A stretch of DNA of 64,000 bases, from assembly GCF_001278755.1 (NCBI RefSeq), contig NZ_CP012601.1, positions 1,364,001-1,428,000 on the forward strand, written 5' to 3'. Source of the DNA: Bacillus sp. FJAT-22090. Its GTDB lineage: Bacteria > Bacillota > Bacilli > Bacillales_A > Planococcaceae. The notes under the pieces are model-generated. The model did no database searches. It was not told the origin of the DNA and worked only from the letters and a program-made list of their open reading frames with translations. Both the position numbers and the translations under genes were made by a program. This document shows, one piece after another, positions 825 to 9,560 of the stretch; within the stretch, counting starts at the first letter, position 1, and the number at the start of each line of letters is the position of its first letter.

Positions 825-1612
825 TTGGCTATTACACCACGCTTCACTTGTAAAGAACTTATTGCATTTTTGATATCTCCACTTCTCATAAGCGATTCTC
901 CTACAAGGACACCACTCGCTCCATATCCTGCAACTTTGGATGCGTCCTCAGAAGTCCAAATACCACTTTCACTTATTAATACACGTTCCTCATGGAAAGG
1001 AAAGATAGATGCAATTTCTTCGGTACGAGCTAAATCGACCTCAAATGTACGCAAATCTCGATTATTTACCCCAATAAGCTTCGCATCGAGCTGTAGGGCA
1101 CGTTTCATTTCCTCTACATCATGTACTTCCATTAATACTTCAAGCCCTTGATCTATTGCATACGAATAAAGTTTAGCTAACTCTTCTTCGCTGAGCGCAG
1201 CTACAATAAGTAAAACAACAGAGGCACCTGCATTTTTAGCGTAATCTATTTGAATAGGATGTATTACAAAATCTTTACACAATATTGGGATTGGCACAGT
1301 TCGAGCTACCTCTTCTAAATCAAAAAAAGTTCCTTTGAAGAAGGGTGTATCAGTTAATACGGATATACAAGCAGCTCCAGCTTGGTAATAGGCTGTAGCT
1401 TGTTCGCTAGGATTTACACCTTCTGCTATCAATCCCTTCGATGGGGAAGCACGTTTTATTTCCGAAATTACTTGTAACTGATTATTTTGATACATAACTT
1501 CAAAAAGTGAAGGTCTTGTGATTTGTATATTTTTCTTTTGCAAATTCTCTTTCAACATTTCCTCAATTTGGTCCTTCTTCTTTTCTAGAATCTTATCTAA
1601 AATAGTTGTCAT
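821..1612 (-). CDS. trpC: Indole-3-glycerol phosphate synthase
   Basis: The product closes the indole ring from CdRP with loss of CO2. It is 263 aa, as usual for the monofunctional enzyme. Visible active-site residues are Glu51 and Lys53 in SEIKRASPSKG, Lys113 in CKDFVIHP, Glu162 in VLMEVH and Asn183 in GVNNRDL. The C-terminal SESGIW and GVLVGESLM bind phosphate. The start ATG overlaps the trpD stop by 4 bp. TrpC and TrpF are separate proteins here, not the fused enterobacterial form. Confidence 0.96.
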   Translation of the reverse strand: MTTILDKILEKKKDQIEEMLKENLQKKNIQITRPSLFEVMYQNNQLQVISEIKRASPSKGLIAEGVNPSEQATAYYQAGAACISVLTDTPFFKGTFFDLEEVARTVPIPILCKDFVIHPIQIDYAKNAGASVVLLIVAALSEEELAKLYSYAIDQGLEVLMEVHDVEEMKRALQLDAKLIGVNNRDLRTFEVDLARTEEIASIFPFHEERVLISESGIWTSEDASKVAGYGASGVLVGESLMRSGDIKNAISSLQVKRGVIAK

Positions 1613-3618: not shown

Positions 3619-6600
3619 TCAATTTGTCGGAACAAGTTGTATTAATATTGTATGATTTCCTATTACAATTTCTGTACCAACCATTTCATTTTGAGTAAAT
3701 GTTAAACTGTTCATCAACAAGTTTTGTTGCAGCATATTCTTAAACTTTTCAATTACTCTTTGTAGCTCTTCATCCGTTTTTACTATTATATCTACACGCA
3801 TATCGATTGGTAGCTTTAACTGTTTTCTATATGATTGTATTGCTCTTATTAATTCACGTGCCATTCCCTCTTGAATCAGTTCTTCGGTTAATGAAAGGTC
3901 TAATGTAACTGTATAATCGCCACTAGTAGCAGAAGCATAGCCTTGCTTCGCTACTTTTTCAATCTGCACATCTTCTACTAAAACTTGTGATTCTTCAGCG
4001 TTTTTCATATTTAAATAACCAATTTGTATAAATTTTTTCACTTGTTCTTCGTCTAAGTTTTGTAGAAAAGTATTAATTGCATTAGATTGATTTCCAAACT
4101 TCGCACCAGATTTTTTAAAATTCAGCTTTAATTTAGTAGAAACGAACTGATCATCATTATCTATCAGTCGGAATAGCTTTACATTCAACTCTTCTTTGAT
4201 GATATCTTCATATAAGTCCCAGTTTACATCTTGATGCAGACTCATTAGAGATAAACTACCTAATGGTTGTTTTATTTTCAATGAAGTTGCATTCCTTATA
4301 CTCCTTCCTAACTCCACTACTTGAAGAACCGCATCCATCTCTTTCTCAAGCTTCTGATTTATGAGGTGTTCTTCTGATTCTGGAAAATCTGTTAAATGAA
4401 CACTTTTACCTGTCAAGTCCATAAACACATCTTCTGCTATAAACGGCGTTAATGGTGCTAATAATTGAGTCGTTTTTGTTAAAACTTCATAGAGCGTTTT
4501 ATATGCAGCTGCTTTGTCCGAATTCATGCCATTTGACCAAAATCGTTCTCGAGATCGTCTAACATACCAATTGCTTAGTTCTTCTAATAGCTTTGCGATT
4601 TCCCTAGCAGCGTTTGTAAAATGATAAGCATCAAAGTTCATTCGAGCTATTTTAATAGTGCTATGCAATCGTGATAATATCCATTCATCCAATTTGTTAT
4701 TTTTTACTTCATATTGCGCATCTGGACTATAGTTATCCAAATTAGTATATAAAGAATAGAAACTATGCACATTATCTAACGTATCGACTAATTTGGATTT
4801 AGCCTCTTGTACAATCCGTTCTGAAAAACGTTTAGTATTCCATGGTGCACTGTCAACTAATAACGCCCATCTTAATGCATCTGCTCCGTATTTTTGAATT
4901 AACTCTACTGGATCTAGTGCATTCCCTTTACTTTTAGACATTTTTTGTCCATTTTCATCTAAAATATGACCTGTAGAAATTACACGTTTATAAGGTGCTT
5001 TTCCCGTAAATAAAGTGGATACGGCGAGTAAGCTGTAAAACCACCCTCGAGTTTGATCAATTCCTTCAATAACTACATCTGCAGGAAATTGTTTTTCAAA
5101 TAACTCTTTATTTTCAAAAGGATAGTGATATTGTGCAAATGGCATTGAACCACTATCAAACCAAACATCAATTACTTCAGGTGTTCTGATCATCGTGCCG
5201 TTACAACATACACAATTCAACTTAATGTTATCTACATATGGTTTGTGCAATTCAATGTCATCAAAAGGCTGAATTGAGTGGAGTTTTAATTCTTCAATAC
5301 TTTTGGGTGCAATTTCATGCTTACATTCCTCACATTCCCAAATATTCAGAGGTGTTCCCCAATAGCGTTTTCGACTGATGTTCCAGTCTACCATCTGCTC
5401 TAAAAAGTTTCCAAACCTGCCATGTTTAATATGCTCTGGGTGCCAAGTGACACCTTCATTATTACGTAAAAATTGATCTTTTAGAGCTGTTGTTTTGATA
5501 AACCAGCTTTCACTTGCATAATACAAAAGAGGTGAATCACAACGCCAGCAATGCGGATAACTGTGTTCGTATTTTTCTTTATTGAAAAGTAATTCTCTTT
5601 CCGCAAGATTACGAACAATATCCACATCGCAATCTTTTACAAACCTTCCTTCAAAGCCTTTTACATTAGAAGTATACCTTCCTTTTTCATCAACAACATT
5701 GATGAAGGATAATTCGTTTTCCTTCACTACTTTATAATCCTCTTCTCCATATGCTGGTGCAATATGGACTATGCCTGTTCCACTTTCTGCTGATACATAA
5801 TCAGCCAATACCACTATATGTCCATTTTCCACATCAACAAAATTAAAGAGAGGTATATAAGAAATATCTTTTAAATCTTCCCCTAAATGAATCGAAAGTA
5901 TCTCATAATCTTTTTTTAATACAGTGCTAGCTAAAGCTTCCGCAACTATATATATGTTTTGCCCTTGTTTTGCTCGAACGTATTTCATCGAAGGGTTAAC
6001 GGCCAATGCAACATTTGCTGGTAAAGTCCAAGGAGTCGTTGTCCATCCTAGAAAATATTCATTTTCTCGATCTGTTATTTTAAATTTTGCCGTAGCAGAT
6101 AAGTCTTTCACAATCTTATAACCTTGTGATACCTCATGTGAGCTAAGAGAAGTTTGACAACTAGGACAGTATGGAGAAACCCTATGACCTTTCTGAAGTA
6201 ATCCTTTTTCATGAATTGTACCGAGTATGTTCCATTCACTTTCAATATAAGTGTTACTTAATGTTAAATATGGATCATCCATATTTACCCAATAACCTAG
6301 CTGTTCGGTAAAATTTCGCCACTGCTTTTCATAAGTAAATACACTTTCTTTACACTTTTCAATAAAAGCCTCTACACCATACTTTTCAATCTCGCTCTTC
6401 CCAGAAATGCCTAATTGCTTTTCTACTCCAAGCTCGACTGGTAAACCATGTGTATCCCAACCCGCTTTACGTATTACTTGATGTCCAGTCATTGTTTTAT
6501 ACCTTGCAACGACATCTTTAATTGTCCGACCTAATGCATGACCTACATGAGGCAAGCCATTAGCAGTAGGTGGTCCTTCATAAAAGACAAAAGACGGGCT

Positions 6601-6708
6601 ATCTTCTCTATACTCAATGGTTTTTTTAAAGGTTTCACCTTTCAACCATTGCGCTCGAATTCGCGCTTCTCTTTGTAGAACAGATTCTTTTTCGTTCGCT
6701 TTAACCAT
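3619..6708 (-). CDS. ileS: Isoleucyl-tRNA synthetase, type 2-like (long, eukaryote-like class)
   Basis: This class I synthetase charges tRNA-Ile. At 1029 aa it is about 100 residues longer than the usual Bacillus IleS (type 1, near 920 aa). Its N-terminus ([16 protein letters not shown], then [10 protein letters not shown]) resembles the long type-2 enzymes typified by B. anthracis/B. cereus ileS2. The ATP signatures are HVGH near residue 55 and KMSKS near 590. The editing domain has [12 protein letters not shown]. Known type-2 enzymes tolerate mupirocin, so low sensitivity is likely but inferred. The gene is alone behind its own T-box, away from the lspA/divIVA context of housekeeping ileS, so a second ileS may exist elsewhere. 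Confidence 0.93.
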
Positions 6709-6744: not shown

Positions 6745-7000
6745 AAAAACCCGTCCCTGTATAAAGGGACGGGTTTAACCGTGATACCACCCTAATTCTA
6801 TTGGAACTCTCGTTACACAATAGCACTTAGCCACGTACAATCATACGTGTTCCTTTTAACGGTAGACACCCGGTCTCACTTACTCATTTTCAGCTCGACT
6901 TCTTAGAGAGGATTTTCATCTATGAACTGAACACCGACTTTCAGCATTTGCCGGCTCTCTTTGGAACAGTTTCAACAACTACTTTTTCTCATCAACGAAT
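6745..7000 (-). promoter_or_regulatory. T-box leader of ileS, AUC (Ile) specifier
   Basis: On the minus strand the leader has an AGTA box near 6975, a Stem I, and a specifier loop GATGAAAATCCTC with ATC at 6913-6911. The core AGGGTGGTATCACGG lies at about 6777-6791. A strong terminator with arms AACCCGTCCCT and AGGGACGGGTT lies at about 6748-6773 and is followed by a T run. Isoleucine starvation should raise ileS expression. A metabolic T-box in front of ileS2-type genes is known in the B. cereus group. Confidence 0.93.
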
Positions 7001-7023
7001 TTGTATGGTTTTATTGTGGATAA

Positions 7024-7078: not shown

Positions 7079-7662
7079 TTACTCAAATGATTTTCTAACT
7101 TTAACTACTCCAGTATTATTTTGAAAATAAATCAATAAATCTGTCCATTCATCATTTTCAAAAGAAAACTCTTCTCTCTTACATTCAAATTTGAATCCTG
7201 CACGTTCAGCTAATTTTTTGGATGGATCGTTATCTGTATTAATATGTAATTCAATTCGATGAAAATTTAATTTGGTGAAGAATAATTCTGTCGCCGCTTT
7301 TACACTTTCAATGCCATATCCATTCTTCCAGAACTGATTGTGTATCGAGTATCCCATCATCGCCCATTGATAATCCATTCTTAAAATGGTGATTAGTTCA
7401 ACCTTTCCAATATTTTTTCCATCTTCTTTTCGAAATAAGCCAAGTATATACATCTCATCTTTTTCGGCTGCCTGTTCAAAACTATTTATCCAATTGATAT
7501 ACCATCTTCCGTATAGGAAGACATCTCTTTATGACCATCATCATAGTTGTATTGAGAAGGGAGACGATTATCAAAACCTGCGTACCAATTAGTATAGTCA
7601 TTATCGTTAAATGGTCTAATGATAAGCCTTTCAGTTGTCGCATATAATTTTGTATTTTTCAT
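7079..7662 (-). pseudogene. GNAT acetyltransferase with one-base frameshift
   Basis: The gene starts at an ATG with AAAAAGGA upstream and reads MKNTKLYATTERLIIRPF, a RimJ/RimL-type start. It runs in frame to about 7503 and then hits a TAA. The family sequence resumes in another frame (WINSFEQAAEKDEMYILG) and continues to 7079. The total length, 584 nt, is one base short of 195 codons, which fits a single T lost in GAT-TGG near 7503-7506. The C-terminal half keeps the acetyl-CoA region (NQFWKNGYG, NDPSKKLAERAGF). It could be a real mutation or a sequencing error. Confidence 0.8.
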
Positions 7663-7810
7663 TAGATGATTTCCTTTTTATGTAATATAGTTAAAACTAA
7701 CACGACACTCATAAGTTTGTTGGAGCCAAGAGGAAGAATCTATTCAATGTCTCCTTCAAGCTAATGAGTGTCAGGTTTGAGTACTCAAAATCTCTTCACT
7801 TGTAAAATTT

Positions 7811-7942
7811 TCAAATATACGAATTTTCTATAGTTGTTGGTCTTGGAGTTTCTTCTTCTACCATCTGTTTTGAATTAGTTGTAAAGCTCAAAGCTAAGAT
7901 GACCATGCTAGAAAGGGCTAAAAATACAATTCTCTTTTTCAA
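7811..7942 (-). CDS. Small exported propeptide, putative RNPP signalling peptide
   Basis: This is a 43-codon gene with a TTG start 1 bp after the stop of the receptor gene. A GGGAGG ribosome site lies 9 bases upstream. The protein has a KKR start and a hydrophobic core (IVFLALSSMVILALSF), as in Sec-exported peptides, then a short polar tail (KQMVEEETPRPTTIENSYI). The size, export signal and position directly behind a TPR/HTH regulator match the NprR-NprX and PlcR-PapR arrangement, where a piece of the tail is the imported pheromone. I cannot tell which residues form the mature peptide. Confidence 0.72.
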   Translation of the reverse strand: MKKRIVFLALSSMVILALSFTTNSKQMVEEETPRPTTIENSYI

Positions 7943-7943
7943 T

Positions 7944-9248
7944 TTATAAATCCTCCCATTTATTAATAAATTTTTCTTTAAATAAAATCTGATTTGATTT
8001 TTGATAATATAAACCAGCTGCTTTAAATTTATTTTGTTTAAAATAGTAATTTGCTAATAAAATAGAATACTTTTGAACATGTCGATCATCTTGGATGTTT
8101 TCAAAATGATGGATAGCTTCCTTTAGTACCAGTTCAAGTTCTTCGGATAAACTATGGAAAGTTCTATATATTTCTATATGAAAATAATATGAAATATTTT
8201 CATTGCTAGAATTTTTTCCCACCTCTATCCTTTCTAAGCCTTTTTGACACCACTTTAGAACTTGTTCATGATCCGCTTGCTTTGAATACTCTTTAATAAT
8301 GGAAAAAATAGTTATTAGGTATCTTTCTGTATTACAAATTTTTTCCTTGGATCTCAAACTACGCTCATAGAACTCAATGGCTTTTTCATGACTCCCCTGG
8401 ATTGCGTGTAATGAACCTAGATTTTGATAAATCACCCCCTCATAGTGTATAAGTTTATAATCTATTGCTAGCTTTCCAGCAAAATTATAATTCTTTTCTG
8501 CTTCTTCATATTTCCTCATTCTTTTATGTGAAATTCCTATCACGATGAAATTATCAATTGCTCTTTCGAACAAGAGATTGTCCTTATAGTAGACCAAAGA
8601 TTTGGAAGCATAGTTAATTGCGTTAAAAAATTCATTGCATTTAAAGTACGTTAAGCTTAGTACATTATAGTAATCAGCGATCTCCCATTCTTCATTTGTT
8701 TCCTTATTTACGAATTTTAATGATTTCTCCAATTGATTTAATGCCTTTTGATAATTTCCATCCAAATAATAATACAGTCCAAGATTAAGATTAATAACAA
8801 ACTTTTGTTTATCGTCCATATCATCTTTTATTTTCACAAGGACATTGTAGGTCGTTTGAAGGTTATCTTCCTCTTCGTTTAAAATTAACTGGAGACGAAA
8901 CATAAATAGGTGATAACTATAGAAATTATTTAATTGTAAGAAGTAATGCTTTCTTTTCGTAAACTCTTTCAAGGATCTTCTTATTAAATTTTTATCCCTG
9001 CTCAAAATGCCAGTTTTATACAACTCATATAACAATGCAATTACCTTATTTTCTTCTTCACTTGAAACTTGATCTATTTCTATTTTTAGTCTTTTGAGTA
9101 AAAGCCTTATAACTTCGTCACTTGGAACTGTTGTATTATTTTCAATTTTGCTTAAATAGGATGTAGAGCAGATTCCCTTGGCCAATGTGTTTTGTTTCAT
9201 ACTTTGGTTTATTCTTTCTGATTTTATTATATGACCTATACTACTCAT
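7944..9248 (-). CDS. RNPP-type peptide-responsive transcription regulator (NprR-like)
   Basis: This 434-aa cytosolic regulator has an N-terminal XRE helix-turn-helix (about residues 3-58: IGHIIKSERINQS, KGICSTSYLSKIENNTTVPS). The rest is helical with tetratricopeptide repeats, for example YYNVLSLTYFKCNEFFNAI and AIEFYERSLRSKEK. The length is near that of NprR and well above PlcR. I chose the ATG at 9248 because an AAGGGG lies 8 bases upstream. The GTG at 9257 is closer to that site. The peptide gene just downstream and the palindrome just upstream support an autoregulated quorum-sensing cassette. The target genes are not known. Confidence 0.82.
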   Translation of the reverse strand: MSSIGHIIKSERINQSMKQNTLAKGICSTSYLSKIENNTTVPSDEVIRLLLKRLKIEIDQVSSEEENKVIALLYELYKTGILSRDKNLIRRSLKEFTKRKHYFLQLNNFYSYHLFMFRLQLILNEEEDNLQTTYNVLVKIKDDMDDKQKFVINLNLGLYYYLDGNYQKALNQLEKSLKFVNKETNEEWEIADYYNVLSLTYFKCNEFFNAINYASKSLVYYKDNLLFERAIDNFIVIGISHKRMRKYEEAEKNYNFAGKLAIDYKLIHYEGVIYQNLGSLHAIQGSHEKAIEFYERSLRSKEKICNTERYLITIFSIIKEYSKQADHEQVLKWCQKGLERIEVGKNSSNENISYYFHIEIYRTFHSLSEELELVLKEAIHHFENIQDDRHVQKYSILLANYYFKQNKFKAAGLYYQKSNQILFKEKFINKWEDL

Positions 9249-9264
9249 TTTCTTCACCCCTTAT

Positions 9265-9285
9265 GAATTAGTAATGTACTAATTC
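9265..9285. promoter_or_regulatory. Perfect interrupted palindrome, candidate operator
   Basis: Arms GAATTAGTA and TACTAATTC flank a 3-base centre, 16 bp upstream of the receptor start. An exact 9+9 palindrome here is a natural binding site for a dimeric XRE regulator acting on its own gene. The assignment rests on position and symmetry only. Confidence 0.5.
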
Positions 9286-9560
9286 TTGAAATAAAATAAA
9301 TATCCTTTCTTAATCGCTCGACTCAAAACGACTATTTCATTGTAGAAATTCATATTAATAGGTAGAAGATTGTTGAATATAGGCGATTTCAATATCCAAT
9401 TTTTATTACAAAATAGTAATATTTCATTATTACATGAAATTTGTTTGATTTTAGTAGTAATAATCCAGGAAAAAAAAGGTTATTTCCCAACTTATAATTA
9501 TTCTAAAAACACAAAAAAATTAGTATAATCTAATAAAGATTTATTATTTTATCAATGAAA

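Follow-up and report, generated by a model that had tools for sequence, protein, structure and literature searches.

Bacillus sp. FJAT-22090 carries an RRNPPA-type receptor gene with a very small gene immediately downstream, which together very probably form a chromosomal quorum-sensing receptor-pheromone pair of NprR-like build. This judgement concerns the pair itself; its targets are weighed separately below. The pair lies in the 64,000-nt stretch of DNA analysed here (the window), part of a 4.21-Mb one-contig genome, and the nearest named relatives of the receptor belong to Psychrobacillus species. What the analysis shows directly is the structure of the genes, their conservation and synteny, the fold class of the receptor, and the anatomy of the promoter and dyad; the features are collected in Table 1.

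Table 1. Features of the receptor-propeptide locus, with positions in the window
Feature	Position	Strand	Remarks
RRNPPA-type pheromone receptor, 434 aa	7944..9248	-	ATG at 9248; N-terminal HTH_3 and long TPR superhelix
Propeptide gene, TTG start, 43 codons	7811..7942	-	signal-peptide-like N-terminus and tail EEETPRPTTIENSYI
GGGAGG ribosome-binding site of propeptide gene	7952..7957	-	9 nt 5' of TTG (sequence)
Predicted pheromone core, around TPRPTTI	7829..7849	-	E-x-P-R-x-T invariant in 19/19
9+9 palindrome GAATTAGTA-N3-TACTAATTC, candidate operator	9265..9285	.	16 bp before receptor ATG
Sigma-H-like promoter (presumed)	9282..9308	-	AAAGGATAT (9308-9300), 14 nt, GAAT (9285-9282)
Second conserved intergenic block	9482..9525	.	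TACTAA...TTAGAATA dyad, then GTTGGGAAAT (minus-strand reading); 13 regions aligned
YvrJ-family gene, 54 aa	9691..9855	+	PF12841, E 3.3e-18; divergent from receptor

A single base separates the TAA of the receptor (7944-7946) from the TTG of the propeptide gene. The initial annotation had placed a 43-codon TTG frame with a GGGAGG site at exactly this point, and its positions are right; in most relatives GGAGG occupies the same ribosome-binding position. The GTG at 9257, which was the choice of the ORF list for the receptor start, falls by eye within the ribosome-binding site, and the ATG was used. We call "signal-peptide-like" an N-terminus that is basic and hydrophobic, judged by a hydrophobicity criterion only. 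By this definition, the 45 window ORFs of at least 150 aa include two with a signal-peptide-like small ORF within 60 nt past the stop, and the propeptide locus alone has one within 6 nt. No clear signal-peptidase site was seen by eye in the window's propeptide copy. A long imperfect inverted repeat with 30-nt arms (77% complementary) is found 3' of the propeptide gene at 7699-7777; it is possibly a terminator or a structured 3' end, and a terminator scan found none.

The small gene was followed through an alignment, A1, of 19 receptors (that of the window together with 17 orthologs, plus a second copy carried by genome G018). At all 19 loci a small ORF sits by the receptor stop; its N-terminus is basic and hydrophobic, and it contains an E-x-P-R-x-T core. 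Conservation of the tail in relatives had been proposed as a check in the initial annotation. The start codon varies between TTG, GTG and ATG while the position at the receptor stop is constant, and length differences are in frame. The propeptide pN/pS was 0.31 for the 7 closest sequences and 0.51 for all 19, compared to 0.22 and 0.28 for the receptor. As judged from these alignments, the small ORF is under purifying selection in the A1 loci.

Beyond the genus, 54 match rows were obtained in the family, of which 52 were read (G224 and contig 26 of G176 were left out). Two of these loci (L116 and L117) had no receptor frame under the HTH motif, leaving 50 readable loci, and in 38 of them a small ORF lies within 6 nt of the receptor stop. 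Together with the A1 loci, this conservation strongly supports the earlier claim that receptor and propeptide make a quorum-sensing cassette. The small ORF could instead encode a secreted or membrane peptide of another role, such as a small toxin or a sporulation peptide, the receptor sensing something else. This alternative would allow for the 12 of the 50 readable loci in other genera where no ORF of this kind starts within 6 nt of the end of the receptor gene. Nevertheless, the position at the receptor stop, the signal-like part and core common across genera, and a pN that is lowest at the core among the 19 sequences (0.142, versus 0.321 in the signal part and 0.378 after the core) all speak against it, and we regard it as highly improbable.

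Among the 7 closest sequences alone, the signal part was the most conserved (pN/pS 0.20, the core having 0.57 and the part behind it 0.62). The pattern of conservation makes it likely that the pheromone is an internal core around TPRPTTI rather than the whole tail. NprX is reported to work via SKPDIVG, an internal segment of its tail (PMC4147580); the mature peptide here probably also comes from within the tail, so that the variable ENSYI end is unlikely to be the signal. TPRPTTI lines up with LPRITSI and IPKITSI of Paenisporosarcina and with the cores of a second system of the genus (KPEITSI, KPKITSI, KPDITSI and similar). In a register that we infer from these short sequences, the cores share a P, followed by a residue that is mostly charged, then by I or P, then by T or V. 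The window's core thereby fits the NprX-like pattern when the register is set by eye (KPDIV versus PRPTT). The 57 pairs with a core were reduced to 55 non-redundant pairs, genus included, by removing 2 receptors at least 95% identical to another. The anchoring P is followed by R or K in 51/55, the next residue is P, I, L, V or M, and then T is commonest (32/55).

An RRNPPA system has a cytoplasmic TPR receptor, often with an N-terminal HTH, and an adjoining small gene with a basic, hydrophobic N-terminus and a short C-terminal signal. Both parts are found here, the second by the hydrophobicity criterion. The HTH_3 domain at the N-terminus sets the window's receptor apart from the Rap proteins of the Bacillus Rap-Phr systems, which are described as having no DNA-binding domain. 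It does not have the build described for PlcR either, that of an HTH with five TPRs (the PlcR chain in 2qfc has 293 residues). The closest folds to an AF2 model of the receptor were NprR and Rap, with apo NprR among the top structural matches. The model contains 18 helices from residue 63 on, which fits nine pairs, the TPRs not being counted singly. The architecture of the NprR subfamily, an N-terminal HTH and a nine-TPR core, is thus present.

At the sequence level, NprR (4gpk) was matched by the receptor profile with an E of 1.8e-8; it was not listed at E 0.01 in a search with the single receptor sequence, and identity to the 4GPK chain is 20% over 342 aligned residues. The rule given in the RRNPP_detector paper calls for an identity of 30% or more, over 80%, with a reference receptor. 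Two figures can be placed beside it: these 20% over 342 residues, and 30% to a plasmid receptor of Priestia koreensis FS-1 (NZ_CP061869.1). The Priestia identity extends over 426 aligned columns, and a 42-residue hypothetical protein is encoded just downstream, with the tail EEEFPEPTVAQVLI (compared to EEETPRPTTIENSYI in the window); this pair has EEEFPEPT. The Priestia pair differs in being plasmid-borne, with an MFS transporter and a serine hydrolase as neighbours. Two NprR-NprX systems are reported on plasmids of this strain (PMC10075063), and the pair compared here may be one of them. These likenesses bear on the suggestion that the tail may define a new specificity group, which holds only in part. 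The tail itself is not known as a pheromone, but its core is NprX-like and it resembles the Priestia tail; the novelty of the signal was overstated.

Could the receptor be a bifunctional NprR, which as apo protein inhibits Spo0F and as peptide-bound tetramer activates genes? The NprR-NprX pairs of the Bacillus cereus group (4GPK, 5DBK) likewise have an HTH with a long TPR superhelix, a propeptide gene downstream and a core of comparable make-up (P and a charged residue, then I or P, then T or V). An orthologous pair would be in agreement with this similar architecture, with the apo NprR match, with a core that can register with SKPDIVG, and with a 30%-identical relative in a strain reported to hold two plasmid NprR-NprX systems. 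However, none of the four Spo0F-contact residues of NprR tested is kept in the window (D107 to Q, Y118 to M, E188 to I, Y223 to L), nor is the NprR residue found at any of these positions in the 19 A1 receptors, in a mapping taken from an alignment with only about 20% identity. The window's receptor has also lost the peptide-contact residues R126, Y165, W167, H201 and R343, and identity in the TPR part is about 20%. By comparison, E188, Y223, H201 and R126 are all retained in L003, a different receptor of this genome, which matches 4gpk with an E of 2.9e-22. The promoter arrangement also differs: here a presumed sigma-H-like promoter precedes the receptor, while extra sigma-H and sigma-E promoters have been reported for nprX itself (PMC4147580). 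We consider orthology to NprR-NprX improbable. The receptor is NprR-like but, because none of the four Spo0F-contact residues is kept, probably not a bifunctional NprR.

Two further receptors of the genome were noted. L003 (1358-1492 and 2851-4119) is a third receptor and the closest to true NprR; it has its own 44-aa propeptide-like ORF, and the gene adjoining it carries putative subtilisin-like motifs. The second, L002, is 31% identical to the window's receptor. Its 101-aa propeptide (1208-1513, minus strand of the locus) contains about five 14-residue repeats (IQDKPDITSINKFA and variants), which TRF scored as 42 nt in 4.8 copies with 93% matches. Counterparts in the genus are 42-48 aa with one copy in 9 of the 10 relatives read, L024 having none. 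Repeated NprR-type propeptides are reported (PMC9765709).

Covariation between receptor and core gave suggestive leads for receptor-peptide contact. In an exploratory comparison, 150 columns are invariant in the 16 receptors with a canonical core, and 3 of them change in L008 or L009, whose cores read PRVTS and PRITS. Only column 166, which aligns with the NprR peptide-contact residue W167, changes in both. It ranked 2/428 in the 55 pairs when columns were scored against core position +2 by corrected mutual information, but on the tree joint changes with +2 were not in excess (p 0.36), and column 166 was dropped as a specificity residue. Core position +3 paired best with column 108, first of 402 columns on the tree with 5/5 joint changes (hypergeometric 1.2e-5, and 8.9e-4 with branch lengths, both uncorrected for 402 columns). 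N or H at column 108 accompanies T at +3 in 30/32, and L accompanies F in 11/11. Contradicting this pairing, L137 and L141 change from F to T at +3 without a change at column 108.

Upstream of the receptor, AAAGGATAT and a GAAT 14 nt further on make up a putative sigma-H-like promoter; the fit to the sigma-H consensus is poorer outside the window's clade. Of its elements, AAAGG was found in 17/18 orthologs, AGGA in 10/18, GAA[TC]TA in 18/18 and GAAT in 13/18. GTCGA, which resembles part of a Spo0A box, is located upstream of the receptor in 16/18. The 9+9 palindrome announced 16 bp before the receptor is present, and its left arm contains the -10 GAAT. As an "exact palindromic operator" it held in part: the dyad is real and overlaps the -10, but its exact form is limited to a single clade, made up of 7 of the 18 orthologs with support 1.0, in which the flanks are as conserved as the palindrome. 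The other 11 orthologs keep GAA[TC]TA and TACTA at this position and have no exact 7+7 dyad there.

When the 442-bp intergenic region was shuffled 1000 times by a Markov model, 83 of the shuffles produced a dyad with arms of at least 9 and a spacer of at most 8 somewhere, so that the dyad alone is not very rare; only 4 produced one of this size within 45 bp of the receptor start. The palindrome core ATTAGTANNNTACTAAT occurs once in the genome, at the receptor promoter. A search allowing up to 3 mismatches returned 6 sites in the genome, the exact one included, versus 7 for the reversed control, and a wider palindrome regulon is unsupported. Over the genus, the exact core was found in 9/19 genomes, with extra sites away from the receptor in G014 (one), G010 and G011 (two each).

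The palindrome might serve a different regulator, or have arisen by chance in a conserved promoter, and not be the operator of this receptor. The shuffles, the restriction of the exact form to one clade of 7 and its equally conserved flanks would all fit, and nprR-nprX has been reported as not autoregulated (PMC4147580). Its overlap with the -10, the rarity of such dyads near the start, the arm parts kept in the other 11 orthologs and the confinement of the core to this promoter in its own genome point the other way. This alternative is a quite plausible one, if not the reading that we favour; autoregulation through the candidate dyad is the simplest reading of the promoter sequence.

A second conserved block lies further upstream in the intergenic region. 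In the 13 aligned regions, which are related and not independent, TACTAA/TTAGTA occurs 25 times outside the promoter-proximal 60 bp, compared to a mean of 6.8 and a maximum of 19 in 300 shuffles. GTTGGGAAA was found in 10/13 regions in this block.

The divergent yvrJ gene is found beside the receptor in 18/18 orthologous loci (L011-L021 among them), and in 11/18 genomes it belongs to a sigO-yvrJ-rsoA-like operon, as in P. soli (L040) and P. lasiicapitis (L044). These genes suggest a locus wider than the "self-contained" cassette of the initial annotation, and the operon of the relatives, which that annotation had missed, is the most interesting lead. It recalls B. subtilis, where SigO-RsoA (YvrI-YvrHa), found with YvrJ, is reported as a sigma factor split over two proteins (PMC8103513). 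In the two representatives scanned (L040 and L047), Sigma70_r4 was above the Pfam cut-off and the YvrJ family was confirmed, while the RsoA match was under the curated cut-off (33.6 and 36.8 bits versus 100). A further difference is that in the window's clade yvrJ alone is retained next to the receptor, and sigO and rsoA are missing there. The same 7 genomes lack sigO at this place and have the exact palindrome, an overlap that may be a single coincidence because they form one clade. No sigO match was found at E 1e-10 in the window's own genome, and 3 of the 7 exact-palindrome genomes have a more distant copy elsewhere (44-46% identity). G004, the sole genome of the genus without the receptor (E 1e-20), had no sigO or yvrJ match either. 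Loci from other genera, with flanks of mostly 0.5 to 2.5 kb, yielded no match to sigO, yvrJ or rsoA.

From these data we infer export, processing, binding and targets as follows. Receptor and propeptide are probably co-transcribed from the sigma-H-like promoter, so production would rise on entering stationary phase. The 43-residue propeptide would be exported and, as its conservation suggests, trimmed to a short internal peptide around TPRPTTI, which would be re-imported and bind in the TPR groove of the receptor, altering its DNA binding. Autoregulation would be the most likely direct output in the window's clade, because the dyad overlies the -10. A second target would most likely be the divergent yvrJ and, in relatives, the sigO-yvrJ-rsoA-like operon. 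A more ambitious reading joins all of these elements: the peptide-bound receptor, tetrameric like NprR, would bridge two dyads with TACTAA/TTAGTA half-sites about 235 bp apart and control the sigO-yvrJ-rsoA-like operon, a divergent two-subunit sigma factor, as well as its own sigma-H-type promoter. The window's clade would then have lost sigO and rsoA here, its proximal dyad becoming a perfect palindrome and the switch being rewired to itself and yvrJ. Taken as a whole, this is an unlikely proposal.

Two other neighbours were observed in the window on the far side of the propeptide gene. An acetyltransferase (GNAT) gene at 7079-7662 is split over two frames (7079-7453, which matches Acetyltransf_3, and 7486-7662). 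A T-box leader (6762-7004, minus strand) is located upstream of a 1029-aa ORF (3619-6708) that looks, by eye, like an isoleucyl-tRNA synthetase.

The receptor is present in 18/19 genomes of the genus (E 1e-20). Over the family, 58/261 genomes match a Paenisporosarcina receptor (E 1e-70), 18 of them in the genus. Among distant relatives, a downstream ORF with a P-charged core was seen in one of two Oceanobacillus loci, in both Metabacillus loci, in Peribacillus, in Weizmannia and in 2/3 Sporosarcina loci; the core is repeated in the Metabacillus, Peribacillus and Weizmannia loci. The downstream propeptide was not clear for receptors of Viridibacillus and Kurthia (L056, L058, L059, L063-L066, L111, L113 and L114, where L111, L113 and L114 are by position the same places as L058, L059 and L056). 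The Paenisporosarcina group includes 7 genomes (L119, L124, L125, L129, L130, L143 and L146) in which the receptor with a propeptide has, about 0.7 kb upstream of it, another receptor that lacks an adjacent propeptide and is possibly an eavesdropper. No match to the window's receptor was found in 50,697 phage records, and 14 plasmid records match it, each below 60% identity.

The word Psychrobacillus is absent from the main texts of PMC10075063, PMC9765709, PMC11343458 and PMC12700828, and in a literature search naming Psychrobacillus none of the matches listed contains the word; the system may already stand in some supplementary table. In the RRNPPA survey, 78% of hits are reported to be from Bacillus and 19% from Streptococcus (PMC9765709). 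The present pair adds to that class a conserved receptor-pheromone family of Psychrobacillus and relatives, whose dozens of natural receptor-peptide pairs provide material for specificity testing. If the link to the sigO-like operon is true, peptide quorum sensing would be tied to a split sigma factor.
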